A DNA stretch of 58,892 bases from the NCBI GenBank assembly GCA_900319645.1, contig ONPG01000014.1, forward strand, positions 1 to 58,892, given 5' to 3'. The position numbers were made by a program, and so were the translations under genes. The number at the start of each line of letters is the position of its first letter. Position 1 is the first letter of the stretch. The notes under the pieces are model-generated. The model worked only from the letters and a program-made list of their open reading frames with translations, ran no database searches and had not been told where the DNA came from. The DNA is from an uncultured Bacteroidales bacterium. GTDB lineage: Bacteria > Bacteroidota > Bacteroidia > Bacteroidales > Paludibacteraceae. Positions 6,501 through 55,821 of the stretch are shown here, piece by piece.

Positions 6501-8714
6501 ATGACAGATTTAACGACATTAATGTACATCGTATTGGCAGCCAGCGTGTTAGCGCTCGGATTTGCCTATTATTTCTACCGTTCGATGCTTCGCAAAGACG
6601 AAGGAACTGAGTTGATGAAGAAGATTGCTTCGCACGTCCGCAAAGGTGCGATGGCTTACCTCAAACAGCAGTACAAAGTGGTGACCATCGTGTTTGTCGT
6701 GCTGGCAATAGTATTCGCCGTGATGGCGTATTTCAACCTGCAGAACGGAATCGTGTGGTTTGCCTTCCTGACAGGCGGTTTCTTCTCCGGTCTGGCAGGA
6801 TTCTTCGGCATGAAAACCGCCACGTACGCTTCGGCTCGTACCGCCAATGCCGCCCGTCAGAGCCTGAACGCAGGCTTGCAAGTGGCATTCCGCAGCGGCG
6901 CTGTGATGGGATTGACGGTCGTTGGTCTTGCGTTGTTGGACGTAGCAGGCTGGTTCCTGGTTCTGCAGAAAACGGGATTGTTGGAGTTGGTAGGCGCTGA
7001 GGCTGACCTGATCACTATCACGACGACGATGCTGACATTCGGAATGGGTGCTTCGACCCAGGCGTTGTTTGCCCGCGTAGGCGGAGGTATCTACACCAAA
7101 GCAGCGGACGTAGGCGCTGACCTGGTAGGCAAAACCGAGTATAATATCCCGGAAGACGATCCGCGTAATCCTGCCACTATCGCCGATAACGTGGGCGATA
7201 ACGTAGGTGACGTAGCGGGAATGGGCGCAGACCTGTATGAGAGTTACGCCGGTTCGATTTTAGCGACGATGGCTTTGGGAGCATCAGCGTTCGCAGGTTC
7301 AGCCGTAGAAGGTTTGCAGATGAAAGCAGTACTGGCTCCTTCGCTGATAGCCGCATGCGGCGTACTGCTGAGTATTATCGGTATTTACCTGGTGAAGACC
7401 AAAGAGGACGCCGGGATGAAGGAACTGCTCCATTCGCTGGCAGTGGGAACGAACACAGCCGGATTCTTGATAGCCGGTGTGACCTTCGGTATTTTCGCGT
7501 GGCTGTTCGGAACAGAAACCGACCAGTGGTGGCAAGTGAGTTTGTCGGTAGTAGTGGGACTGATAGCCGGTATGATTATCGGTCAATCCACAGAGTATTA
7601 CACTTCGCAGAGTTATAAGCCCACACAGAAAGTAAGCGAGAGCAGTCAGACTGGTCCTGCTACCGTGATTATCAGCGGTTTGGGCTTAGGAATGCTCTCA
7701 ACGGCAATTCCTGTGGTGACGGTAGGTGTAGCGATTATCCTTGCGTATTTGTGCGCGAACGGATTCCACATTGAGTTCTGCGCCACGAATCTCTCTATGG
7801 GCTTGTACGGAATAGGCATCGCCGCTGTGGGAATGCTCTCGACGCTTGGAATCACGCTGGCAACGGACGCTTACGGTCCTATCGCCGACAACGCAGGCGG
7901 CAACGCGGAGATGTCGGGTCTGCCGGCAGAGGTTCGTCAGCGTACCGACGCGCTGGATGCGTTAGGCAACACTACTGCTGCGACGGGCAAAGGATTTGCC
8001 ATCGGCTCGGCTGCCTTGACAGCTTTGGCTTTGTTGGCTTCGTATGTAGAGGAGATCAAAATAGCCCTGATACGCACCGGCGAAGCGTTGCCGAACGGAG
8101 TAGAGGCAACGAAAGCAACGCTGGTGGATTTTATGGACGCGTATAACGTCAACCTGATGAACCCCGTGGTGTTAGTGGGTGTGTTTATCGGATCGATGAT
8201 GGCTTTCCTGTTCTGCGGTTTGACGATGAATGCTGTGGGACGTGCCGCCCAGAAGATGGTGGAGGAAGTGCGTCGCCAGTTCCAGACCATCAAAGGTATT
8301 CTGGAGGGCAAGGCAGATCCGGATTACGCACGTTGCGTAGCTATCTCGACCAAAGGCGCACAGCAGGAAATGCTGCTGCCATCCATCCTAGCGATAGTAG
8401 TGCCTATTATCACCGGTCTGGTGTTAGGCGTAGCGGGTGTGTTAGGTCTGCTGATAGGCGGTCTCGCCACGGGATTTGTGCTTGCGGTCTTTATGGCTAA
8501 CGCAGGTGGCGCGTGGGACAACGCGAAGAAATATGTGGAGGAAGGCCATTTCGGCGGCAAAGGCAGTGATTGCCACAAAGCAACCGTAGTGGGCGACACC
8601 GTAGGCGATCCGTTCAAGGACACCAGCGGACCTTCGCTGAACATTTTGATTAAACTGATGTCCATGGTCAGCATTGTGATGGCCGGCTTGACAGTAGCTT
8701 ATCACTTATTATAA
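6501..8714 (+). CDS. hppA: Membrane-bound ion-translocating pyrophosphatase (K+-dependent type)
   Basis: 737 residues, about 16 membrane segments; couples PPi hydrolysis to Na+ and/or H+ export. The signature DVGADLVGKTEYNIPEDD, the acidic loop DNVGDNVGDVAGMGADLYESY and the C-terminal GDTVGDPFKDTSGPSLN are intact. GNTTAATGKGFAIGSA carries Ala and Gly where K+-independent enzymes have Lys and Thr, so a K+-dependent enzyme is predicted (family knowledge). K+-dependent members are often Na+ pumps, but the ion cannot be read with certainty. It lies 28 bp after the PEGA gene and 6 bp before the phosphatase gene, so read-through is possible. PPi use fits with the nearby ppdK. Confidence 0.97.
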   Translation: MTDLTTLMYIVLAASVLALGFAYYFYRSMLRKDEGTELMKKIASHVRKGAMAYLKQQYKVVTIVFVVLAIVFAVMAYFNLQNGIVWFAFLTGGFFSGLAGFFGMKTATYASARTANAARQSLNAGLQVAFRSGAVMGLTVVGLALLDVAGWFLVLQKTGLLELVGAEADLITITTTMLTFGMGASTQALFARVGGGIYTKAADVGADLVGKTEYNIPEDDPRNPATIADNVGDNVGDVAGMGADLYESYAGSILATMALGASAFAGSAVEGLQMKAVLAPSLIAACGVLLSIIGIYLVKTKEDAGMKELLHSLAVGTNTAGFLIAGVTFGIFAWLFGTETDQWWQVSLSVVVGLIAGMIIGQSTEYYTSQSYKPTQKVSESSQTGPATVIISGLGLGMLSTAIPVVTVGVAIILAYLCANGFHIEFCATNLSMGLYGIGIAAVGMLSTLGITLATDAYGPIADNAGGNAEMSGLPAEVRQRTDALDALGNTTAATGKGFAIGSAALTALALLASYVEEIKIALIRTGEALPNGVEATKATLVDFMDAYNVNLMNPVVLVGVFIGSMMAFLFCGLTMNAVGRAAQKMVEEVRRQFQTIKGILEGKADPDYARCVAISTKGAQQEMLLPSILAIVVPIITGLVLGVAGVLGLLIGGLATGFVLAVFMANAGGAWDNAKKYVEEGHFGGKGSDCHKATVVGDTVGDPFKDTSGPSLNILIKLMSMVSIVMAGLTVAYHLL

Positions 8715-46497: not shown

Positions 46498-47079
46498 ATG
46501 ATAATAGGCATCACCGGAGGCATAGGAAGTGGCAAGTCCACGGTAGCACGCGAACTCGCGCGCAGAGGTTTTCCTGTCTATGATTGTGACCGCGAAGCCA
46601 AGCGGATTATAGCCGAGGATAGGGAAGTGCAGCAACAGATCAGGGATCTTCTGGGTCCGGAGTCTTTCGTGCAGGGGCGTTATAACACCGCTTATGTGGC
46701 GAAACGGGTTTTTGCCGAGCCCGCGCTGCTGACGCAACTCAATCTTATCGTTCATCCTGCGGTCAAAGCGGACATCCGGCAATTCACTGCTCTCCATGCT
46801 GTGTCTTCCTTTGTTTTCGTTGAATCGGCTATTCTTTTCGAGTCGGGTTTTGACCGTCTGTGCGACCGTGTCGTCTATGTCGATGCGCCGGAAGACATCC
46901 GTTTGGAGCGTACTATCGCCCGTGATTACCACGGCGAATCCACACCGGAGAATATCCATAAAGTCCGTGCGCGCATGTGTTCGCAGAACCCTCATAAAAC
47001 AAACGATACCATCATCCTCAACAATGATGGTACCGCTTCTGTCTCTTCTTTGGTAGATGGGTTGCTGGCTAAGCTCTAA
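46498..47079 (+). CDS. coaE: Dephospho-CoA kinase
   Basis: 193 residues. Phosphorylates dephospho-CoA, the last step of coenzyme A synthesis. P-loop IIGITGGIGSGKSTVA, substrate strand FPVYDCDREAKRII, the motif LNLIVHPAVKADI, and the nucleotide-binding VVYVDAPEDIRLERTIARD are all present. The length is normal. ATG 46498 directly follows the repeat/hairpin block. Its stop overlaps that of nadC by 4 bp (47076-47079) from the other strand. Confidence 0.96.
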   Translation: MIIGITGGIGSGKSTVARELARRGFPVYDCDREAKRIIAEDREVQQQIRDLLGPESFVQGRYNTAYVAKRVFAEPALLTQLNLIVHPAVKADIRQFTALHAVSSFVFVESAILFESGFDRLCDRVVYVDAPEDIRLERTIARDYHGESTPENIHKVRARMCSQNPHKTNDTIILNNDGTASVSSLVDGLLAKL

Positions 47080-47945
47080 GCTTTCACCGCTTTGAAACTC
47101 ATGTCGAGGCTCTTGACAGAGTGGGTGAGTGCGCCTACAGACACAAAATCCACACCGCATACAGCGTAGTCGCGGATGGTGTCGATTGTAATACCGCCGG
47201 ACGATTCTATCTCGATGTGACGGCCGTACTCCGGTTCCGCACTGCGGATCAGTTCCACGGCTTTCTTGGTGCGCTCAGGCGTGAAATTATCCAGCATGAT
47301 CCGGTCGGGAATACCGGTAGAGATAGCTTCGCGTATCTCGTCCTCGTTGCGCACTTCTATCTCAATGCGCAGGTCTTTGCCTTTCTCCTTGCAGTAATCG
47401 CGTGCGCGGGTCAGTGCGTTGGTGATGCCGCCTGCAAAATCCACATGATTGTCTTTGAGCAGGATCATATCAAACAGACCGATACGGTGGTTCATGCCGC
47501 CGCCTATTTTCACGGCTTCTTTCTCCAGGTAACGCAGTCCCGGAGTGGTCTTGCGGGTGTCTAACACATGGCAACCGGTGTCCTCGATGAGGCTTTGGTA
47601 TCTATGTGCCGTAGTGGCTACGCCGGACATGCGCTGCATGATATTGAGCATGGTGCGTTCGATCTGCAGCAGGCTCAGTTCCTTGCCGTACACACGGAAT
47701 GCGATATCGCCGGGTTTCACCAGAGCACCGTCCTCGAGCAGCTGCTCCATGCGGCATTCCGGGTCGAAATAGTTAATGATTTCTTTGGCTACTTCCACGC
47801 CTGCGAGCACGCCGGTGTCTTTGATGATCAACTGCTGGCAACCCATTTGGGTGGCGGGGATGCAACTGAGCGAGGTGTGATCACCGTCGCGGATATCTTC
47901 CTCAAACCAGATTGCAATAAGCTTGCGAAGTTCTTGTTTTTCCAT
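47076..47945 (-). CDS. nadC: Nicotinate-nucleotide pyrophosphorylase (carboxylating)
   Basis: 289 residues from ATG 47945, about 11 nt after the predicted transcription start. Converts quinolinate + PRPP to nicotinate mononucleotide in NAD synthesis. Motifs: DIRDGDHTSLSCIP, ERTMLNIMQRMSGVATTAHRY, HVLDTRKTTPGLRYLEKEAVKIGGG (PRPP/quinolinate binding), MILLKDNH, IEIEVRN, IMLDNF and IEIESSGGITIDTI. Intact. A longer in-frame extension would begin upstream of the promoter and is rejected. Confidence 0.97.
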   Translation of the reverse strand: MEKQELRKLIAIWFEEDIRDGDHTSLSCIPATQMGCQQLIIKDTGVLAGVEVAKEIINYFDPECRMEQLLEDGALVKPGDIAFRVYGKELSLLQIERTMLNIMQRMSGVATTAHRYQSLIEDTGCHVLDTRKTTPGLRYLEKEAVKIGGGMNHRIGLFDMILLKDNHVDFAGGITNALTRARDYCKEKGKDLRIEIEVRNEDEIREAISTGIPDRIMLDNFTPERTKKAVELIRSAEPEYGRHIEIESSGGITIDTIRDYAVCGVDFVSVGALTHSVKSLDMSFKAVKA

Positions 47946-48108: not shown

Positions 48109-48142
48109 AAAGAACGCGCGTACACACGTACGCGCGTTCTTT
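48109..48142 (-). terminator. Terminator hairpin after the nqrF remnant (copy A)
   Basis: Perfect 15-bp stem (AAAGAACGCGCGTAC and its complement) with an ACAC loop, T-run on the exit side. A diverged copy follows nqrF at 54530-54553. Confidence 0.85.
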
Positions 48143-48199
48143 AGTTCCGAATGGCTATCTGCCTCCAAATAACCGGTGTGCTCGAAAGCACCTCTCCGG

Positions 48200-48286
48200 T
48201 TATCCGCCGAAGTTATCGAAGCGGATGTCTGCGTCATCAACGCCCAGCGAGTGGAGCAGGTCGAGGACGGTCTTCGCCATCATCGG
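48200..48286 (-). pseudogene. nqrF: Orphan 3' end of nqrF (copy A)
   Basis: Encodes the last 27 residues of NqrF (MMAKTVLDLLHSLGVDDADI ... FDNFGG), identical in protein to the end of the nqrF at 54608 but different in many synonymous positions after the first 39 bp, which are identical. Upstream homology stops at the preceding Pro codon. It has its own downstream terminator hairpin (48109-48142). An 84-residue open frame runs through it, but the part upstream of the nqrF match (to about 48451) is not recognised. Reading: the displaced end of an nqrF gene left by an insertion, or a relic of a second nqr operon. Confidence 0.85.
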
Positions 48287-48462
48287 TGTCATCCAAGACT
48301 CATAGAGACGGCGCTTAATAGTAGCGGCGATGTGTTCTTTACGGCTACTGCCGAGGAGTTCGATCGGAAGAAAAAGGGAGAATAGGAAGATAGAGACATC
48401 CGCGAGGGTGCCTCTATTTCTTTGGTGAGACATATATGAGCCTTCTTGCAAATAGTAAGTAC

Positions 48463-49233
48463 TCAGAGTCTATATCCAATTTCTCGCGTCACCAACTCTT
48501 TTATGCCGTCATATTGAATTAGATATATTCGTTTATAGCCATTATTTTGCGGAAGTTCATAGGGTACAGTCCAAAACTCATATGGTTCATTATAATGAAT
48601 AGCTATAACCAACCAGTATTCTTGTACACTCTCATTCTCCTTTAATAGTTTGTATCAAAACAATTTTTCAAGTTTGCCACGTATATATTGATCAAAGTCG
48701 TCTTGAGTTATTTTGTTAAGGTATTCTAAAGATGGAGAAATAACATGTGGCTCTGGAGTATTGTCTTATACCACTTGTATAGATTCTACAAATTTTATAT
48801 TTTGATCTTGCTCGCTTGATATTACTTCACCTGCGAAAAAACTATCTTTATATACATTACGTAGATACTCGATTTCATCGACCACTTGCTTAACAAAGAT
48901 ATGCTTTCTTTCGGTGTTCCAAAAGGCAACTCGTTTAAATTGAACATCAATTAATATATTTTCATTTCTGTCAGCGAGTATCTTCTCGTAATATTTTAGT
49001 GCGTACATCCTTTTTTGTTTACTAATCACCGAAAGGCTCCGCCCTTTTGAATCAAACTTGCAACTAGGACAAATGGTCACAAGTTCTATCCCAACTTTCT
49101 GACCGTTATATGATATAATGAAATCAGGGCTTTCAGTTTCTATGATAGAACCTTCATTTATTTTCAAATAGTCAAAGAGTGGTTGAATATAGCTCCTCTC
49201 TGTATTTGTCTTTTTTTGATCAATTGAATTCAT
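48463..49233 (-). pseudogene. Broken gene, possible restriction-nuclease-like protein
   Basis: A frame of 256 codons interrupted by two in-frame stops: TAA at 48766-48768 and TGA at 48655-48657. Protein-like sequence continues in the same frame after both (EPHVISPSLEYLNKITQDDF, then VQEYWLVIAIHYNEPYEFW) to TGA at 48463, so this looks like recent point-mutation decay. The N-terminal part (155 residues) has ESPDFIISYNGQKVGIELVT, which resembles the D...ExK-type core of PD-(D/E)XK nucleases, though the Lys is replaced. Strongly AT-rich, own promoter at 49263-49293. Function not established. Confidence 0.7.
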
Positions 49234-49262
49234 CTTCTCAATACCTAATTTAAAATTTGCTG

Positions 49263-49293
49263 CAAAGGTACTGCATTTTTTTGATTAGAGCAA
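49263..49293 (-). promoter_or_regulatory. Promoter of the broken nuclease-like gene
   Basis: Minus strand TTG (49291-49293), 20 bp, TACCTTTG (49263-49270). Confidence 0.75.
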
Positions 49294-49332
49294 ATTTATA
49301 TGCTAAAAGTTTTAGTACATTTATTGTCCTAT

Positions 49333-49370
49333 AAAACAAACAACCACTTAATTTTGTGGCTGTTTGTTTT
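49333..49370. terminator. Terminator hairpin after lipoprotein gene
   Basis: AAAACAAACAACCAC pairs with GTGGCTGTTTGTTTT with one mismatch; T-rich on both exits, so it may work in both directions. Confidence 0.65.
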
Positions 49371-49468
49371 TATAACTGATTCCTCTATAAAGAATCATAC
49401 CAAACATGTGTCTACATAAAGCATATACTTATTTTTAAGTTATATATTGTATAAGTTATGTGATTTTA

Positions 49469-49924
49469 TTATTTATTTCTGTATATTCTTAAATATCTAG
49501 CAGAACCGTCCATAATTAAAAATTCTTCACTTACAAATTCTCCATCCCAATAGTTTTTATCCTCCATATTTCCTTTTAAATCCGGTGATGTTTCGTATGT
49601 CGAGATTTTAGGGTAATTAAATGATCTCACATGAATAGTACCGCAGCCATCTTTATATACACTCCCATATTTCATTGGATCATCACCATGTCCAATATCT
49701 ACTTTTGTATATCCTGTGTTATATTGAGTCAATTCAGCTTCTTTTTCACTAACAAAATGCCATACATCATAAAAATATAGTCTATTATCTGTTTTATATC
49801 CAGGAAGAGAACTTTCATTTGCCCAATAAGTCCCAGCTAACTTGAAAGGTCCATCTACTTCTTTTTTACTACAGGAAACACATAAACCAGCGCAAACTAC
49901 AATCAATAAGATTAGTTTTTTCAT
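49469..49924 (-). CDS. Small lipoprotein in island
   Basis: 151 residues. Lipobox LCVSCS (Cys18 after MKKLILLIVVCAGLCVS). The mature part has a lipocalin-like look: AGTYWANESSLPGY near the N-terminus, WHFVSEKEAELTQY, and a strand-rich end FLIMDGSARYLRIYRNK. Such small beta-barrel lipoproteins are common in Bacteroidetes; the function is unknown. It is AT-rich like its neighbours and stands alone, with no clear promoter match upstream and a terminator at 49333-49370. Confidence 0.7.
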   Translation of the reverse strand: MKKLILLIVVCAGLCVSCSKKEVDGPFKLAGTYWANESSLPGYKTDNRLYFYDVWHFVSEKEAELTQYNTGYTKVDIGHGDDPMKYGSVYKDGCGTIHVRSFNYPKISTYETSPDLKGNMEDKNYWDGEFVSEEFLIMDGSARYLRIYRNK

Positions 49925-50235
49925 TTTGTTTGTTGGCAGTTATATCCCATCGCCTCGTCGGTTTTAATTATTTGATATTGTTGTTTTATTTATGAACATA
50001 CAAAACGTGAGCTAACTGTTATTGGTTCATTCGGGTCTCGACTCCCACCATATCCAATGCAGAAAGCCCACGCATTCACGTGAGCGTTTCGCATTATCTT
50101 CGGAATATGGTTATTCAAATTGTCGAGAAATGAATGAATCCTCAAATAAAGCAAACGCTTAATAATATTCTGGTAGCGCAACGCTTTGCGCTTGTCCTTG
50201 CTATTTAACGTCGTGCAATAGACGGTTATTTATAT
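49925..50235. other. Island gap with a degenerate tmRNA-3'-end-like segment
   Basis: 311 bp. 50032-50056 reads like the tmRNA T-arm and tail (CGGGT..TCGACTCCCACCAT.TCCA) with small changes, followed by AAAGCCCACG...CGTGAGCGTTT, a damaged terminator stem. A 63-residue minus-strand frame crosses this segment and is probably not a gene. Near 50195 TTTAACGTC...GACGG resembles the coaE-upstream repeat. Confidence 0.35.
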
Positions 50236-51117
50236 TCACTTTTTAGTTTGCAACTGTGAAATAGCAGCTTTTAATACTTGGTAGCAAATAGAGACCGTAT
50301 GTTCTGTGGGGTTAAAGCGTTCTGCCATTTGCTGGTATGGATGGATATAATTGCGAAATTCACGTAATATGTGGCTAAATTTCTTAACATCTAATTGTAT
50401 GAAATTAACTTCACATGCTACATCAATATAATTACTTAATGTCCACCTATTAAATGGAAAAACTTTGTTGGTATCTTTTTCTTTAGGTGCAGCTTCTGCT
50501 CTATTGAATATTGCTGCATTGGCTGAGGCTATTCCTAATAATATTCCCTCCAACGTGCTACCCATTAATATAATTGCAGCTAAATTTGCTTTTCTCTCGA
50601 TACATAAAGCTATCTCTGACATTCGATTTCCTAATATGGGTTTAAGAGAATTATCAATAGGCAATTTTTCTATGCTTATTTCTCCAAAATCTTTGCTAAT
50701 AAACGCATTTTCTTCTGTTATGCGACTGTTATTCTCCTTTGCCTTTTCGATGTCAATATTTATTTCAGTTGCACGTGTTATTATAATTTCAGTATTACTA
50801 CGTACTACTTTCCACTTATCAAATATTAAGTACTGATTAAAATCAGCTATAAATTGGTCTAGTTCCTGGTACTTTCCTATATAATTAATAGGAGCAAACA
50901 AAATTTTTATACATTTATCAATTTCAGGAGTGCCATTTATTGAAGCAAGTTTATCATCAGTATATTTCCATCTTGAAGGAAAACTCCCGTGATAATCATA
51001 TGTTTCCGTGAAACCAAGTTGATTGAAGAAATCGACTAATTTAGGTCCAGAACGATATTCTGTCTCTTCATTAATGAGATTTCTTAATTTCTCTAATGTT
51101 TTAGAAGATAACACCAT
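50236..51117 (-). CDS. Uncharacterised island protein with HEPN-like C-terminus
   Basis: 293 residues. N-terminal ~120: RSGPKLVDFFNQLGF, FPSRWKYTDDKLASINGTPE, then FNQYLIFDKWKVV, a pattern I have seen in uncharacterised phage-defence or mobile-element proteins but cannot name. C-terminal ~130 residues are helical: LAAIILMGSTLEGILLGIA, then SHILREFRNYIHPYQQM, where R-EFRNYI-H fits the R-x(4-6)-H motif of HEPN nucleases. AT-rich; 52 bp after the preceding gene of the darTG operon and probably co-transcribed. A role in abortive infection is a guess. Confidence 0.6.
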   Translation of the reverse strand: MVLSSKTLEKLRNLINEETEYRSGPKLVDFFNQLGFTETYDYHGSFPSRWKYTDDKLASINGTPEIDKCIKILFAPINYIGKYQELDQFIADFNQYLIFDKWKVVRSNTEIIITRATEINIDIEKAKENNSRITEENAFISKDFGEISIEKLPIDNSLKPILGNRMSEIALCIERKANLAAIILMGSTLEGILLGIASANAAIFNRAEAAPKEKDTNKVFPFNRWTLSNYIDVACEVNFIQLDVKKFSHILREFRNYIHPYQQMAERFNPTEHTVSICYQVLKAAISQLQTKK

Positions 51118-51169
51118 CTGTCATTAGTTGAGATCAATAAATATACTTTTCAAGTTTGTCTTTTTTTGT

Positions 51170-51919
51170 TTAACGCATAGTATTACGCATACAATATTGC
51201 TTCTCGTATTCATTATTTTGTTGAATACTCTCATCAATTATCCCTATTGTTGCAAATGTACCATGTGCGAACAAACCTATTCCTTTTTTGATTTTAGAAT
51301 CGCGTGCTGAATCTCTTTCCTCTCTTGCCCAACTAAGTAGTCGATTTTTGTAAGGTGTCAACTGTCTGTGCAAGATTCTCTGTTCGCTTTCAAACTTCGC
51401 AACTATTTCGTCGTAGAAATTATATGTGTATTGCGCATATAAGAACATCCCCGTATGTAACATAGCCGATGCCGCATGGTAAATGATCCTATCTTCTTTA
51501 TCCGTTTGTTTCTGCTCTGCATTGTTCACCTGTGGAGTTGGAACAGAGACCTCATGACGGCATGTCGGCAACGCATTGAAAGGTATAATGTTTCCCCGTA
51601 TTAATAGATCCTTGACTTGATATAGTACATTACTTGCTTCTGTTTGCGTCCCACTATAACCTAAGATTACATTTTCTGATTGTAGGCTTTTAAGTATTTT
51701 CTCTTTCCACGTTTCAACATGGTAAAGTTCTTTTGTGAATGCAGTATCTAAAAAGTTAAGTACATCATTGATAAATTGCAATCGCCTTTGAGAATCCAAT
51801 GTAGTATTACCATAATACATAGAAACTCCGGATTCTATCTTTTGAATGTCTGACAGAATCTCTAGTTTATCCATTGTGGTAACAAATATTCCTGATATGC
51901 TCTTTATCAAATAATACAT
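51170..51919 (-). CDS. Uncharacterised protein in darTG operon
   Basis: 249 residues from ATG 51919 (4 nt after the darG stop); ATG 51874 (234 residues, MDKLEILSDIQKIESG) is equally plausible. Mostly helical; residues about 150-200 contain HAASAMLHTGMFLYAQYTYNFYDEI, followed by a basic stretch (RHQLTPYKNRLLSWAREER-like) and an end with GIGLFAHGTFATIGIIDES. No family recognised and no signal peptide. Its tight spacing after darG suggests it belongs to the same transcription unit and may act with DarTG. Confidence 0.6.
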   Translation of the reverse strand: MYYLIKSISGIFVTTMDKLEILSDIQKIESGVSMYYGNTTLDSQRRLQFINDVLNFLDTAFTKELYHVETWKEKILKSLQSENVILGYSGTQTEASNVLYQVKDLLIRGNIIPFNALPTCRHEVSVPTPQVNNAEQKQTDKEDRIIYHAASAMLHTGMFLYAQYTYNFYDEIVAKFESEQRILHRQLTPYKNRLLSWAREERDSARDSKIKKGIGLFAHGTFATIGIIDESIQQNNEYEKQYCMRNTMR

Positions 51920-51923
51920 TATC

Positions 51924-52958
51924 TTATTTCGCGTAAATCAGATTTGAGGTAAGGTGTGCTTTTGCAGATTCGATGTATTTGGGATTGCTGAAAAGAACAC
52001 TCTTACGATGGTTCCATTCCGACAAATATGTATAAATATCCTCGGATGAGAGTTCTCCATGCTGGTTCATTATATAATCAACGGACGACAACAATTCCAA
52101 TGCAAAATCAGAATAATAGCCATTCAAGAATTCCGTTGTTTTTTTTGCAATAGTTTTTAGTTCTTCATCTCCCTCCACTATATCCTTGACATTTTGGTAT
52201 GCATCAGCGACAAGAGATAAAGCCTCAAACGGTTTCTTGTCCATAGCACTATAGCCCATAATATAACTGCCGTTCATCGCATATAGGACATAACGCACTT
52301 TGCCGGAGTACGGGCCGTAATACTGCGGTGTATATTTCAAGTTAAATAGATTTTGTGCTCCAAATCGCTGGAGAAAATAGCACACTTTCTCACTTGAAAA
52401 CTCAGAAACGAACTCTCCGTGTCGAACCAAATCATATAACACATAAAGTAACAAAGCACGAGCTTTTGTCAATGGAATGCGCTCTGTTTTCATCTTTTCA
52501 ACTATAACAGCATTCGGCTCATAAACGGTAATATCCACATCAATATTTGCCAATGCTTGTTCTATCATTTCTCGTACTCTTACCCAATTAAGTCCGCCAT
52601 TGCCAGCTCCAAGAGGTGGGATAGCAATACTTGTAATGTGATATTGCTCTATTACCCGAATTAGGTCTTGAAGTCCTGCTTGTATATATGCATATTCCGA
52701 AGGTTTGCGCCAATCATTTTTAGTGGGAAAGTTGATAATTAACTTTTCGCCAAAAATTGTGCTCTGCGTAGTTACGAACAATTTACCGATAGCAATTTCG
52801 CCTGTCTTGCAAGCTTTCTGATACAATTTATCGTTGTCCGGAAAATGCGTTTTAAATTGCAACGCTATCCCTTTACCCATCACACCAACAAGATTGACGG
52901 TGTTAACCAACGCCATTGCTGGAGATTCCAAAATATTTCCTTTTGTGTAATGTATCAT
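51924..52958 (-). CDS. darG: DarG-like antitoxin: macrodomain DNA-ADP-ribose hydrolase
   Basis: 344 residues. Residues 1-155 are the macrodomain: IHYTKGNILESPAMALVNTVNLVGVMGKGIALQF (the ADP-ribose-binding NTVN..G.MGKG loop) and AIPPLGAGNGGLNW. DarG removes ADP-ribose from thymidines in DNA, undoing the toxin's work. The C-terminal ~180 residues (LLLYVLYDLVRHGE, KYTPQYYGPYSGKVRYVLYAM, ALELLSSVDYIMNQHG) match the usual DarG C-terminal domain that binds the toxin. It begins 1 nt after the darT stop, so the pair is co-translated. AT-rich compared with the chromosome around it. Confidence 0.92.
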   Translation of the reverse strand: MIHYTKGNILESPAMALVNTVNLVGVMGKGIALQFKTHFPDNDKLYQKACKTGEIAIGKLFVTTQSTIFGEKLIINFPTKNDWRKPSEYAYIQAGLQDLIRVIEQYHITSIAIPPLGAGNGGLNWVRVREMIEQALANIDVDITVYEPNAVIVEKMKTERIPLTKARALLLYVLYDLVRHGEFVSEFSSEKVCYFLQRFGAQNLFNLKYTPQYYGPYSGKVRYVLYAMNGSYIMGYSAMDKKPFEALSLVADAYQNVKDIVEGDEELKTIAKKTTEFLNGYYSDFALELLSSVDYIMNQHGELSSEDIYTYLSEWNHRKSVLFSNPKYIESAKAHLTSNLIYAK

Positions 52959-52959
52959 A

Positions 52960-53601
52960 TCAATAATAAGCTTGAGGGGCGATTTTAATAATCTCGGGAT
53001 TTACGCCCATGTTAATTAATTGTTGTTTTGCTTCCGTATTATAACATACATAGCCTGCGATGTTTTGCGGAGCGACATCTTCTTTTATCAAGAATTCTGC
53101 TTGTTTGCGGCGCTTTAAATCATTGTCATCTTCTCTGCTCCAATACTTTTCTATTACTGCATCCCAATCTATCAGCGTAGGAAGCGAATTTATATTTTGG
53201 GCAGAATAGAACTCTGTTAGGGAATCCGTTGCATGTCCGTCAGAGAAAAAGTACGTATAATTTTCTTGGAGAATCTTTTGTAAAGATACAACTACATATA
53301 CTATTTCGTGCGGATGTCGAGCTTGTGCAACAAAATTGCCTCCTTGTTGAATCACATATAACATCGGCATTCGTACACCGAAATAAAATGGAATATAATC
53401 GCCAAGGATGATGTATTGATTATCTACGTAGATCGTTTTATGGCTGCGACAATCGATCAAACTTTGATCGCCAATTGATATGTAATTAGGGTCTGCTAAA
53501 GGAGATGTCTTATGAACAATACCATTAGACAAAATATGCGGGATGTTCCCTATATGGGTCATCCTGTACAGATAAATATTTTCTATTGTCCTTGGCATCA
53601 T
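52960..53601 (-). CDS. darT: DarT-like toxin: DNA thymidine ADP-ribosyltransferase
   Basis: 213 residues from ATG 53601 (a second ATG follows at 53598); the longer frame to 53658 would start within the promoter. Motifs of the DarT (DUF4433) fold: IYLYRMTHIGNIPHILSNGI, GDYIPFYFGVRMPMLYVI, FFSDGHATDSLTEFY, and LKRRKQAEFLI, where the Glu of AEFL fits the catalytic glutamate. DarT attaches ADP-ribose to thymidine bases in single-stranded DNA; such pairs act as toxin-antitoxin and phage-defence systems. Followed immediately by darG. Confidence 0.92.
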   Translation of the reverse strand: MMPRTIENIYLYRMTHIGNIPHILSNGIVHKTSPLADPNYISIGDQSLIDCRSHKTIYVDNQYIILGDYIPFYFGVRMPMLYVIQQGGNFVAQARHPHEIVYVVVSLQKILQENYTYFFSDGHATDSLTEFYSAQNINSLPTLIDWDAVIEKYWSREDDNDLKRRKQAEFLIKEDVAPQNIAGYVCYNTEAKQQLINMGVNPEIIKIAPQAYY

Positions 53602-53607
53602 TTTGTA

Positions 53608-53658
53608 ACCTTTGCAACTTTTAGCTGCAAAGGTACTAAAAAAAAATGATATGTGCAA
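53608..53658 (-). promoter_or_regulatory. darT promoter with overlapping inverted repeat
   Basis: Minus strand TTG (53656-53658), 20 bp, TACCTTTG (53628-53635). A perfect 9-bp inverted repeat (ACCTTTGCA at 53608-53616; TGCAAAGGT at 53626-53634) straddles the -7 box and start point, a candidate autoregulatory operator. Confidence 0.65.
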
Positions 53659-53706
53659 GAAAAATGTGAAGAAATATCATTTTTTTCGTAAAACGGAGAG
53701 GGAAAC

Positions 53707-53737
53707 TTGCGTATATAAAAAAGTTTTTGTATCTTTG
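53707..53737 (+). promoter_or_regulatory. Promoter of the broken gene at 53767
   Basis: TTG (53707-53709), 20 bp, TATCTTTG (53730-53737). Confidence 0.7.
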
Positions 53738-53766
53738 CGATCGATTTGGAAAAGAATTGCGGAACT

Positions 53767-54123
53767 ATGAAGGCGAAGTGGGCAAGTATAATAGAAGATT
53801 TGCAGGGAAATGTGGATCAAAGGCACTATGCACGGCATATCCCCGGAAACGGAGAATGGGCGGCTGTGTGCCAAAAGCCGGAGTTGAGCAAGAAGACAAA
53901 ACAAAAGAAAGCAAGTCTGCCGCATGTGAAGGAGTTTGGCGTGCTGATTGCGACATGCAAGGAGATACTCCATGATTCGGAGCGCAGGGCGGCATGACAA
54001 GCGAAGTACGATGAGGCTATGCGGAAAGCACGGAAGTACGGGAAGCCTATTCAAGGGCGGCTGTGCGATTATGTGCGGCACGAGGTGAGCGTAGCACTCA
54101 AAAAGGGCGAAGAAATCGCTTAA
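53767..54123 (+). pseudogene. Broken small gene with in-frame TGA
   Basis: From ATG 53767 (MKAKWASIIEDLQGNVDQRH) the frame reads 76 codons to TGA at 53995-53997, then continues as protein-like sequence (QAKYDEAMRKARKYGKPIQG ... VSVALKKGEEIA) to TAA at 54121-54123. A single TGG-to-TGA change would explain it (AAW-QAKYDEA). The 117-codon product would be basic and helical; I recall similar small proteins carried on Bacteroidetes mobile elements but cannot name a family. It retains a good promoter. Confidence 0.65.
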
Positions 54124-54168
54124 ATCTCAGGTTATTCTTATGGTTTGGTTAGGGTGATGTCGGGTAAA

Positions 54169-54212
54169 GCATATATTCGGAATATATTCGGCATATATTT
54201 AGCATATATTGC
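54169..54212. repeat. 11-bp tandem repeat (GCATATATTCG-type x4)
   Basis: Unit starts at 54169, 54180, 54191 and 54202, with few changes between units. Confidence 0.9.
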
Positions 54213-54529
54213 GATCAGGTGGAAAGCAGGTGGAAGGGAGGTTGCGCTCCCTTTCTATATGCCGATTACTAATCGGCGTAAATGCCAAGAATCTTTCTTC
54301 GGACGTTTGTCCGAAGCAGGGGACGAAAGCGGATCCGACGTTAATTATAACGCCGAAAACGACAACCGGCATGCAATGCTGGGAAAATGGACGGAGAAAT
54401 GACCCAGGATACAATCTCTGGAAACGGACGAAGGTGGGAGGAGGATAGAAACGGTATCCCGGAATAGCGGGATCGCGGAATACCGACAGGAGAAATCCGC
54501 CAAGATTGAGCGGATACATTATATAAAGA

Positions 54530-54553
54530 ACGCGCGTACACACGTACGCGCGT
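54530..54553 (-). terminator. Terminator hairpin after nqrF (copy B)
   Basis: ACGCGCGTAC / GTACGCGCGT stem with ACAC loop, then CCCTTTA. Same core as the hairpin at 48109-48142 but with a shorter stem. Confidence 0.8.
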
Positions 54554-54607
54554 CCCTTTAATATAATCGTGATCTCGTGATCACGAGATTTCGTCATTGC
54601 GAGGCGT

Positions 54608-55821
54608 TTATCCGCCGAAGTTATCGAAGCGGATGTCTGCGTCATCGACTCCGAGGGAGTGCAGGAGATCCAATACCGTCTTTGCCATCATAGGAGGACC
54701 GCAGAGGTAGTACTCGATGTCCTCGGGTGCGTCATGCTGCTTGAGGTAGGTGTCGCCCATAACCGGAGCGATGAAGCCCGGGGTGTACTTGATACCCAGT
54801 TGGTCTGCCTTTGGGTCCGGACGGTCGAGCGCCAAGTGGAAATGGAAGTTCGGGAACTCCTTCTCCAAAGCGAGGAAATCGTCGAGGAAGAAGACTTCGT
54901 CGATAGCACGTGCGCCGTAGAAATAGTGCATCTGACGGTCGCGGCAGTTGCGGGTCTTCAACATATGCATGATCTGCGCACGCAACGGAGCCATACCGGC
55001 ACCACCACCGACCCAGATCATCTCCTTCTGGCTGTCGTAAACAGGTCTGAACTCGCCGTAAGGACCGCTCATGCGCACTTTGTCGCCCGGTTTGAGCGAG
55101 AAGATATACGTGGAAGCGATACCACACGGTACGTCCATGAACTCCGGTCCGTTGGGGCACTGCTCTTTCGGTTTGAAAGGCGGTGTAGCGATACGGACGG
55201 TAAGGGTGATGATGTCGCCCTCGTCGGGGTAGTTAGCCATCGAATAAGCACGTACGGTAGCCTGGGTGTTCTTCTGTTTGAGTTTGAAGAGCCCGAACTT
55301 CTGCCATGCCGGCAGGTAGAGGTCACCGATGAGCGATTTATCCATGTCGCGGTCGTAATCAATGTCATACTCAGGGATGATGATCTGTGCGTACGAACCC
55401 GGCTCGAAGTGCATGTGCTCGCCCGGAGGCAGCTGCACTTTGAACTCTTTGATGAAGGTAGCGACGTGTCTTCTTTCACTTTGACTTGGCAACCCAGACG
55501 CCAGCCTTCTTTCTGCTGCTTGCGGGAGAAATGTACGGTCTCGGTGGGCAGGATCTCGCCGCCTCCGGAGAGGACTTGGCACTTACACTGTCCGCACGAG
55601 CCCTTACCGCCGCAAGCCGAAGGCAAATGCACCCCGGCTTCGCCGAGGTTGGCAAGGAGCGAGCCACCTGCGGCTACGTCATAGACCTTGTCGCCGTTGA
55701 TGGTCACTTTGACGTTACCGGACGAAACGAGGTAGCGTTTGGCGATGAGCAGGATAGCCACTAACAGGAGTATTACTACTAAGAATACTGCAACTGCATA
55801 AATAATAGCTGTTATATTCAT
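54608..55821 (-). pseudogene. nqrF: Na+-translocating NADH:quinone reductase subunit F, frameshifted
   Basis: NADH-oxidising subunit of Nqr. The 5' frame from ATG 55821 gives the membrane anchor and the [2Fe-2S] ferredoxin domain (SACGGKGSCGQCKCQV, RLGCQVKVKED). After about 55468 the sequence shifts frame and resumes as VATFIKEFKVQLPPGEHM, the FAD domain (RAYSMANYPDE) and NADH domain (MIWVGGGAGMAPLRAQI, YYLCGPPMMAK), ending DNFGG. Compared with the family from memory, some 20-25 codons between KED and VATF are missing, so an out-of-frame deletion is inferred. As read, no full NqrF can be made. Confidence 0.88.

Follow-up and report, generated by a model that had tools for sequence, protein, structure and literature searches.

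A DarTG island in an uncultured Bacteroidales bacterium of the Paludibacteraceae lies between two copies of the 3' end of nqrF. The DNA analysed (the window) is the whole 58,892-nucleotide (nt) stretch of contig ONPG01000014.1 in assembly GCA_900319645.1, and the DarT and DarG models match between the two ends, where a preliminary description made from the letters of the sequence had placed the island. We consider it moderately probable that the nqrF 3' end is a genus-wide insertion hotspot, at which DNA enters by means of a trans-acting recombinase in a manner resembling the insertion of e14 in icd. The preliminary description had read the island as an element that inserted into the 3' end of a gene and supplied a replacement end; that reading is now supported by (i) the boundaries of displaced nqrF ends in relatives; (ii) a step in synonymous diversity at codon −25 of nqrF; (iii) the genes neighbouring displaced ends, and (iv) a locus (L153) that appears to lack the insert of a related genome (G078). 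Genomes and loci are designated by our own G and L numbers.

Two nqrF 3' ends flank the island

The two nqrF 3' ends lie 6.4 kb apart in the window and a hairpin follows each of them. The features concerned are:

54608-55821, reverse strand: nqrF, the target gene and the only copy found in the genome (tblastn with an intact relative)
54608-54694, reverse strand: copy B, the 3' end now joined to nqrF (alignment; diversity step at codon −25)
54525-54558, no strand assigned: terminator-like hairpin following copy B; hairpins of this type are frequent behind nqrF in the genus
48200-48286, reverse strand: copy A, the displaced nqrF 3' end (alignment with copy B and relatives)
48109-48142, no strand assigned: hairpin after copy A, with the shared core
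47076-47945, reverse strand: gene beyond the displaced end, tentatively nadC by its sequence and not by a family search; near nqrF in some relatives, in the opposite orientation

Both copies encode P-MMAKTVLDLLHSLGVDDADIRFDNFGG, a run of 28 identical residues; the preliminary description had seen the shared peptide and counted 27. It was correct that the final 39 nt, stop codon included, are identical, and it had put the differences in the preceding 48 nt at about 12 positions, mostly synonymous. The divergence is real, and the exact figure is 13 differences in 12 codons, every one synonymous. The hairpins have a 24-nt core in common, again as described, and this core occurs exactly twice in the 2.64-Mb genome with up to two mismatches allowed. 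Likewise, the genome of the window (G000) has two NqrF matches only, both on the window's contig. Copy B appears to be the end that was brought by the island. The shared hairpin was considered as a mark of element origin and rejected: similar hairpins, with a CGCG/GCGC core no more than 250 nt from the stop, follow 30 of 78 main nqrF ends and were found in 1 of 234 shuffles.

Base composition follows the island for most of its length. In 500-base windows the G+C fraction is 0.29-0.39 across 48.5-53.7 kb, compared with flanking values of 0.49-0.55 on the left side (44-47.7 kb) and 0.52-0.61 on the right (from 54.5 kb). At 53.75-54.5 kb it is near 0.49, so that the AT-rich stretch, said at first to fill the interval between the copies, is shorter than that interval and ends about 0.9 kb early.

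The reading frame of the window's nqrF is interrupted near 55459-55471, with a loss of about 19 residues that relatives have; tblastn of an intact relative NqrF places residues 1-121 in one frame and residues 141-427 in another. This frameshift may be a real loss or an assembly error.

Displaced nqrF ends in relatives

A genus sample of 178 genomes was searched with a 30-residue nqrF-end query; the named NqrF relatives are Paludibacteraceae or Bacteroidales, many of them from herbivore gut according to record titles. Matches occurred in 127 of the 178 genomes, and 23 of these 127 had at least two, some second matches being contig-end fragments of the main gene. Short displaced ends, hand-picked as short remnants by means of a script able to return 60-150 nt only, numbered 17 from 14 genomes, with homology starting 74-100 nt before the stop. 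Their starts are thus confined to a 26-nt stretch of a 1.28-kb gene. Fourteen of the 17 share contig and strand with another nqrF end; the exceptions are the end of G178 and the distal copy of G194, which are on other contigs, and the copy of G101, which has the opposite orientation to the main gene. The set leaves out L034, L105, L110, L111, L114, L116-L119, L121 and L122 (several cut by contig ends), as well as inverted pieces in L098 and L107. Two further displaced ends in named loci start 89 nt (L213) and 67 nt (L215) before the stop.

Displacement of a gene end is a peculiarity of nqrF in these loci. Among 80 named loci, chosen for nqrF and not for nqrF copy number (959 open reading frames (ORFs) of at least 150 aa, 1.26 Mb), ten displaced gene 3' ends were found and all ten were of nqrF; nine of the 80 have an extra nqrF end within the available sequence, a sequence that is often short. 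A wider, overlapping set of 149 loci, in which some genomes are counted twice and part of which was picked for having several nqrF ends, gave 25 displaced ends, namely 24 of nqrF and one partial paralogue. The broken frame of its nqrF left the window unscored in this count.

Compact units of about 360 bp were also seen between two nqrF ends (L097:8683-9058, L098:13903-14264, L099:1648-2014, L107:1287-1648 and L108:322-679), in the order terminator, degenerate inverted nqrF piece, structured stretch and second nqrF end. In G163 (L098:1378-1510), two nqrF ends of unlike allele type are fused head-to-head.

A synonymous diversity step at codon −25

The alignment of copies A and B against relatives, suggested in the preliminary description, yielded both the common remnant boundary at 74-100 nt and a step in diversity at the corresponding part of the main gene. 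Of 61 tails, 38 distinct close ones (those of 37 relatives and of the window) were compared. Their synonymous diversity rises from 0.13 to 0.48, stepping at codon −25; the mean synonymous difference per codon is 0.12 over codons −137 to −31, and the blocks between codon −23 and the stop give 0.41-0.54. Codon −25 was the best change point in 60 of 60 subsamples of 24 tails each, and none of 2000 permutations of codon order matched it. A second, overlapping set of 32 tails gave 0.137 and 0.496 on the two sides; a third tail group comprises three sequences only. Pairs of tails show the same break: for 47 pairs that are at most 3% apart over the upstream 327 nt, the mean difference in the final 75 nt is 18%, and it exceeds 10% in 41 of these pairs, which are not independent. 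G101 and G102 have tails that agree in all 327 nt and then differ by 17%. Over the whole gene, nqrF diversity is 0.3-0.5 at the 5' end, declines toward the island and then jumps.

Genes beyond the displaced ends

If an insertion pushes the old nqrF end aside, the genes beyond that end should be found downstream of nqrF elsewhere. For 11 of 28 ORFs beyond displaced ends, a homologue lies no more than 10 kb downstream of an intact nqrF in another genome. Such a match exists for eight of the 11 displaced ends for which a neighbour could be examined (a twelfth end, in G178, had none), with orientation kept in six of the eight; G151 and G194 are not independent in this tally. As a control, none of 29 window ORFs from elsewhere matches genes downstream of intact nqrF. 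A second control, from relatives' loci chosen for other reasons, gave 16 matches among 61 ORFs, all of them in the small ORF family (below) or in queuosine operon genes, for which the loci had been chosen, and none among the other 45.

The clearest counterpart concerns G078, where HlyIII- and ValS-like genes lie beyond the displaced end. The same two genes follow the intact nqrF in L153, and G078 has about 0.6 kb extra before them. The search for an empty site between nqrF and nadC, proposed in the preliminary description, produced L153 as an apparently insert-free counterpart of G078 and, among relatives' nqrF loci, no empty site oriented as in the window. The gene nadC lies within 10 kb of nqrF in four of the 80 named loci, at 2.2 kb behind queF and other queuosine genes in L152, L168 and L169, and at 8.3 kb in L153. 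It converges on nqrF in all four, but points the same way as nqrF in the window; therefore the window's own empty site is not established. In close pairs of genomes, colinearity stops at the nqrF stop or within 200 nt past it in eight of 11 cases. The same core gene was not found on both sides of the site in most genomes, within the available sequence; a common gene may lie farther out.

A queuosine operon (tentative gene names) stands directly after nqrF in L125:960-3170, L127:1070-3230 and L118:8400-10580. As a candidate for ancestral content of the site it was weakened by the finding of queF elsewhere in the genome in five of eight genomes searched, the window's and four others.

Shared ends and exchangeable cargo

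The island itself belongs to a family of segments. Two stretches of the window recur in other genomes, 53610-54281 with its small ORF and 48198-48387, a composite of sstT and nqrF pieces. The island contents, from the displaced end toward nqrF, are:

48278-48302, no strand assigned: head-to-head junction of the sstT remnant and the displaced nqrF end, around CACCGATGATGG
48302-48387, forward strand: 3' remnant of an SstT-like symporter gene, last ~24 codons, forming the distal element end (tblastn)
48766-49233, reverse strand: cargo ORF, function not assigned; weak matches only (PADLOC PD-T7-1, E 0.0022; Pfam, E at least 0.024)
49469-49924, reverse strand: cargo gene for a small lipoprotein, to judge from a signal read by eye; no Pfam or PADLOC match
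50236-51117, reverse strand: cargo gene whose N-terminal part resembles PADLOC Stk2 (E 1.6e-11)
51170-51919, reverse strand: cargo gene, function not assigned; common to the G015 island downstream of nqrF (84% aa)
51924-52958, reverse strand: DarG, macro-domain antitoxin (PF01661, E 2e-18; PADLOC DarG, E 2.3e-115)
52960-53598, reverse strand: DarT, DNA ADP-ribosyltransferase toxin (PF14487, E 2.1e-47; PADLOC DarT, E 7.5e-57)
53610-54281, forward strand: conserved nqrF-proximal end of the element family, with the small ORF (blastn to relatives)

The names SstT, coaE, queF and its operon, HlyIII, ValS and NUDIX are our assumptions, based on the sequences and not on a family search. The DarT gene (PF14487) adjoins that of the DarG macro-domain antitoxin, as in DarTG systems, and the cargo may serve in defence.

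By blastn, 53610-54281 matches with 74-88% identity over varying lengths near nqrF ends in 11 loci (L033, L042, L044, L055, L097, L100, L102, L117, L124, L126 and L129). Its small ORF (53767-54120) is of a family of about 118 aa and is interrupted in the window by one in-frame TGA; the intact homologue in G032 (L033:5749-6105) matched neither Pfam nor PDB entries, and PHROG only weakly (E 0.051). Three genomes, G078, G151 and G194, carry both recurring stretches, with composites 83-90% identical to that of the window (90.3% to G078 over 186 bp for 48200-48384). The sstT remnant, absent from the preliminary description, matches an intact gene in G170 at 95.8% over 24 aa (tblastn, E 5.6e-8), and in G170 this SstT-like gene is convergent to nqrF and 4 kb off, which suggests that the composite arose from a G170-like convergent arrangement. 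At the junction, sstT and some nqrF alleles share CACCGATGATG.

The cargo found between nqrF ends in other genomes differs from that of the window. G078 has DUF3990 together with a leucine-rich-repeat protein. G163 carries a PstI-like restriction-modification set, an SNF2 helicase and also a WYL regulator, while G014 has an AAA ATPase of the AbiEii group and G101 has RelA/SpoT and RhuM domains. In G032 the stretch is 38.6 kb long, and its ORFs were read by eye. G015 and the window have 1.77 kb of cargo at 93.4% DNA identity, compared with 88.4% for most of nqrF, and the product of 50236-51117 is 99.7% identical (aa) to that of a gene in the G015 nqrF island; the excess of cargo identity over nqrF identity would be a sign of recent exchange. 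G190 has two tandem sstT 3' remnants beyond nqrF (L129:4530-4628 and 6902-6994), which suggests stacked cargo units.

A conserved gene of 336 aa stands beside the small ORF in three islands (L124:1942-2952, L033:4573-5577 and L129:11437-12444), with a weak PHROG match (E 0.097). A structured repeat, GGGGTCCCC ... GGGGAGAG, was found in 11 scanned loci, mostly away from nqrF junctions, and copies starting GGGGTCCCC stand in varied contexts in L034, L036, L046, L101, L106, L109, L112 and L115; it is probably a separate dispersed repeat.

The search for a recombinase or carrier

The preliminary description saw no recombinase gene in the island, and profile searches agree, since PF00589, PF00239 and PF01548 have no match in the island interval or on the window's contig. 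The tyrosine recombinase profile PF00589 likewise had no match on contigs with placed nqrF ends in 39 of 39 genomes, the contigs being incomplete and a few nqrF-end matches having no listed position. Exactly two PF00589 matches were found in 14 of the 39 genomes, presumably XerC and XerD. By eye, against the dif consensus, no likeness to dif was seen at the nqrF site, and no dif search was made. PF00239 was on an nqrF-end contig in two of 20 genomes (about 38 kb away in G172 and about 14 kb away in G121) and altogether absent in five of the 20, the window's among them. PF01548 had no match on nqrF-end contigs in any of the 20 genomes, IS110 transposases being found in two of the 20, away from nqrF contigs.

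RNA-guided insertion through a bridge RNA was raised by the inverted nqrF piece and structured repeat beside junctions in several loci. The idea was dropped because IS110 is absent from nqrF contigs and no Rfam match falls at a junction; at gathering scores, ten loci gave one match, a DUF805b RNA inside the G151 island (L100:4118-4153). Viral contigs searched with the nqrF-end pattern gave no match. Two phage records had weak matches (46-56% identity), and 63 plasmid records had a match, eight of the ten listed being annotated as nqrF.

A model for insertion and its alternatives

The data presented above have led us to a model whereby DNA segments, probably circles, would enter nqrF by recombination at a near-fixed point some 25-27 codons short of its stop, around CCTCCTATGATGGC. 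Every segment would bring a terminator and a separate version of the final ~26 codons, nqrF being re-completed on arrival, and the former nqrF end would be pushed to the far side together with whatever lay beyond it. The window island would be one segment family with exchangeable cargo, here DarTG plus other genes, and two conserved ends, the small ORF beside nqrF and the sstT 3' remnant head-to-head with the displaced nqrF end. A recombinase acting in trans is proposed because no known recombinase was found with the segments, and is favoured because the near-fixed point, the replacement end, the displaced end and the stacking mark a site-specific insertion from which the integrase is missing. 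The circular intermediate, the site-specific enzyme and current mobility would follow from the model. A bolder version, in which mobile segments without a recombinase use one codon-level site in nqrF through an undescribed or host enzyme and repair the target with a synonymously recoded end, seems to us doubtful.

A number of observations weigh against site-specific insertion. No enzyme, circle or excision was seen. The boundaries spread over 74-100 nt, with 67 nt in L215; longer nqrF remnants of ~49-123 codons exist in L034, L105 and L110; the displaced copy in G101 is inverted; and the sequences to the left of the remnant boundaries are not one conserved attP arm, unlike what a single integrase would leave. 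The diversity step is weak in 31 more divergent tails (0.415 and 0.517). The values of 0.3-0.5 toward the 5' end of nqrF mean that homologous exchange acts here too, and an nqrE control (17 sequences, codons 106-202) is itself uneven, at 0.14-0.20 to codon 135 and 0.25-0.39 beyond; since this control is not flat, the argument lies in the abruptness at codon −25 and not in height alone. Similarly, no empty site in the window's orientation was found among relatives' nqrF loci, and the orientations of the window's nadC and of the 62% match in G014d are opposite. Colinearity is kept for 1.7-3 kb past nqrF in three of the 11 close pairs (L197/L164, L220/L225 and L228/L224), the tails most like a displaced end often do not come from a neighbour-sharing genome, many nqrF contigs are short, and the sstT/nqrF junction can be explained by the short homology CACCGATGATG.

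Several of these points would be expected if the cargo were imported by homologous recombination with no integrase, through nqrF on one side and a short homology on the other, the recipient's nqrF remnant being left behind. The donor DNA would arrive by transformation, transduction or conjugation, and the repeated position would reflect a few ancestral composites spread by recombination. We regard this as a serious possibility that falls short of being probable. It accounts for the lack of a recombinase, for the fall of nqrF diversity toward the island, as in a flanking gene used as a homology arm, for the CACCGATGATG common to sstT and some nqrF alleles, for the one junction type and one neighbour shared by G151 and G194, and for the variable junctions and uneven nqrE control. 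Precedents exist in the many integrase-less hotspots that recombine at flanking core genes (available text of PMC5635113) and in the nqrF crossovers that accompany import of a neighbouring cassette in Chlamydia suis (excerpts of PMC5293829 and PMC8278220). However, crossovers spread through homology would not be expected to give an abrupt step or to cluster unlike junctions, and the available sequence often offers no second homologous flank, as the eight pairs that lose colinearity within 200 nt of the stop illustrate.

Decayed e14-like elements, whose site was set by an integrase since lost, would have the anatomy seen in icd (as far as covered in the passages of PMC11148124 and PMC6379469), and the small ORF of the window is indeed interrupted. 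We think this unlikely, as a tyrosine recombinase is found in none of the 39 genomes on contigs with placed nqrF ends, and the cargo is recent (93% DNA identity with another species), making decay in every case improbable. Local duplication, template switching or gene conversion within one genome, with an island unrelated to the second end, could have produced the head-to-head fused remnants and inverted nqrF pieces of several loci; it is very improbable for the island, given that the copies are synonymously diverged, that genes by displaced ends occur downstream of intact nqrF in other genomes and that both island ends are common to genomes with different cargo. The named relatives are metagenome-assembled or uncultured by their record titles, and misassembly of contigs must therefore be considered, but the same kind of junction, with matching neighbours, in records from several projects and hosts makes it scarcely credible.

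Comparison with known systems

The bolder version of the model, if true, would amount to a system of gene exchange that is founded on a respiratory gene and often serves defence genes. How integrase-less gene-exchange hotspots turn over is an open question, and the nqrF hotspot has a sharp signature, a one-codon diversity step and displaced ends, for which any set of genomes can be scored; it is also a place to seek defence genes in rumen and gut Bacteroidales. The DarT and DarG genes of the window are adjacent and recognised by curated models, as in other DarTG systems, and the pair itself shows nothing unusual.

The window island would be a gene-end-replacing insertion of a known type, here without an integrase and in nqrF. 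The model case is e14 in icd of Escherichia coli, a site that phage 21 also uses. There, 165 bp are replaced, with 12 nucleotide exchanges and two amino-acid replacements (PMC11148124, in the part of its text available). Both are insertions in the 3' part of a metabolic gene that supply a replacement end and leave the truncated old end on the far side, and in nqrF that truncated end likewise has mainly synonymous differences. In contrast, the prophage e14 encodes a putative integrase, intE (same text of PMC11148124), whereas no integrase is encoded by the nqrF element to judge from PF00589, PF00239 and PF01548, and the nqrF islands differ further in variable cargo, apparent stacking and the target itself.

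Variable DNA beside nqrF has been noted before; a variable rrn-nqrF region of Chlamydiaceae was reportedly treated by Liu et al. in 2007. In Chlamydia suis, a resistance cassette sits between the rrn operon and nqrF, within an invasin-like gene, and is moved by homologous recombination (PMC5293829, relevant passages). These bacteria are of another phylum, and the passages describe no replacement of the nqrF end. In open-licence PubMed Central text, of which parts were available, passages on the Chlamydia cassette were the only relevant ones on insertion at nqrF, which does not establish absence from print. The two core defence hotspots of Pseudomonas aeruginosa had no mobility gene in 29% and 47% of sites (PMC10250203, available text), and Oliveira et al. 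2017 remark that many radically novel elements lacking integrases would be very surprising (PMC5635113, available text). Such integrase-poor hotspots (PMC5635113, PMC10250203) resemble the nqrF site in their fixed place, fast turnover and often missing mobility gene; they frequently carry defence cargo and recombine at flanking core genes, in which the nqrF site may be similar. They are delimited by conserved flanking genes and, in the text available, are described with no replacement of a target-gene end, whereas the nqrF hotspot is set apart by a codon-level boundary and a displaced gene end.

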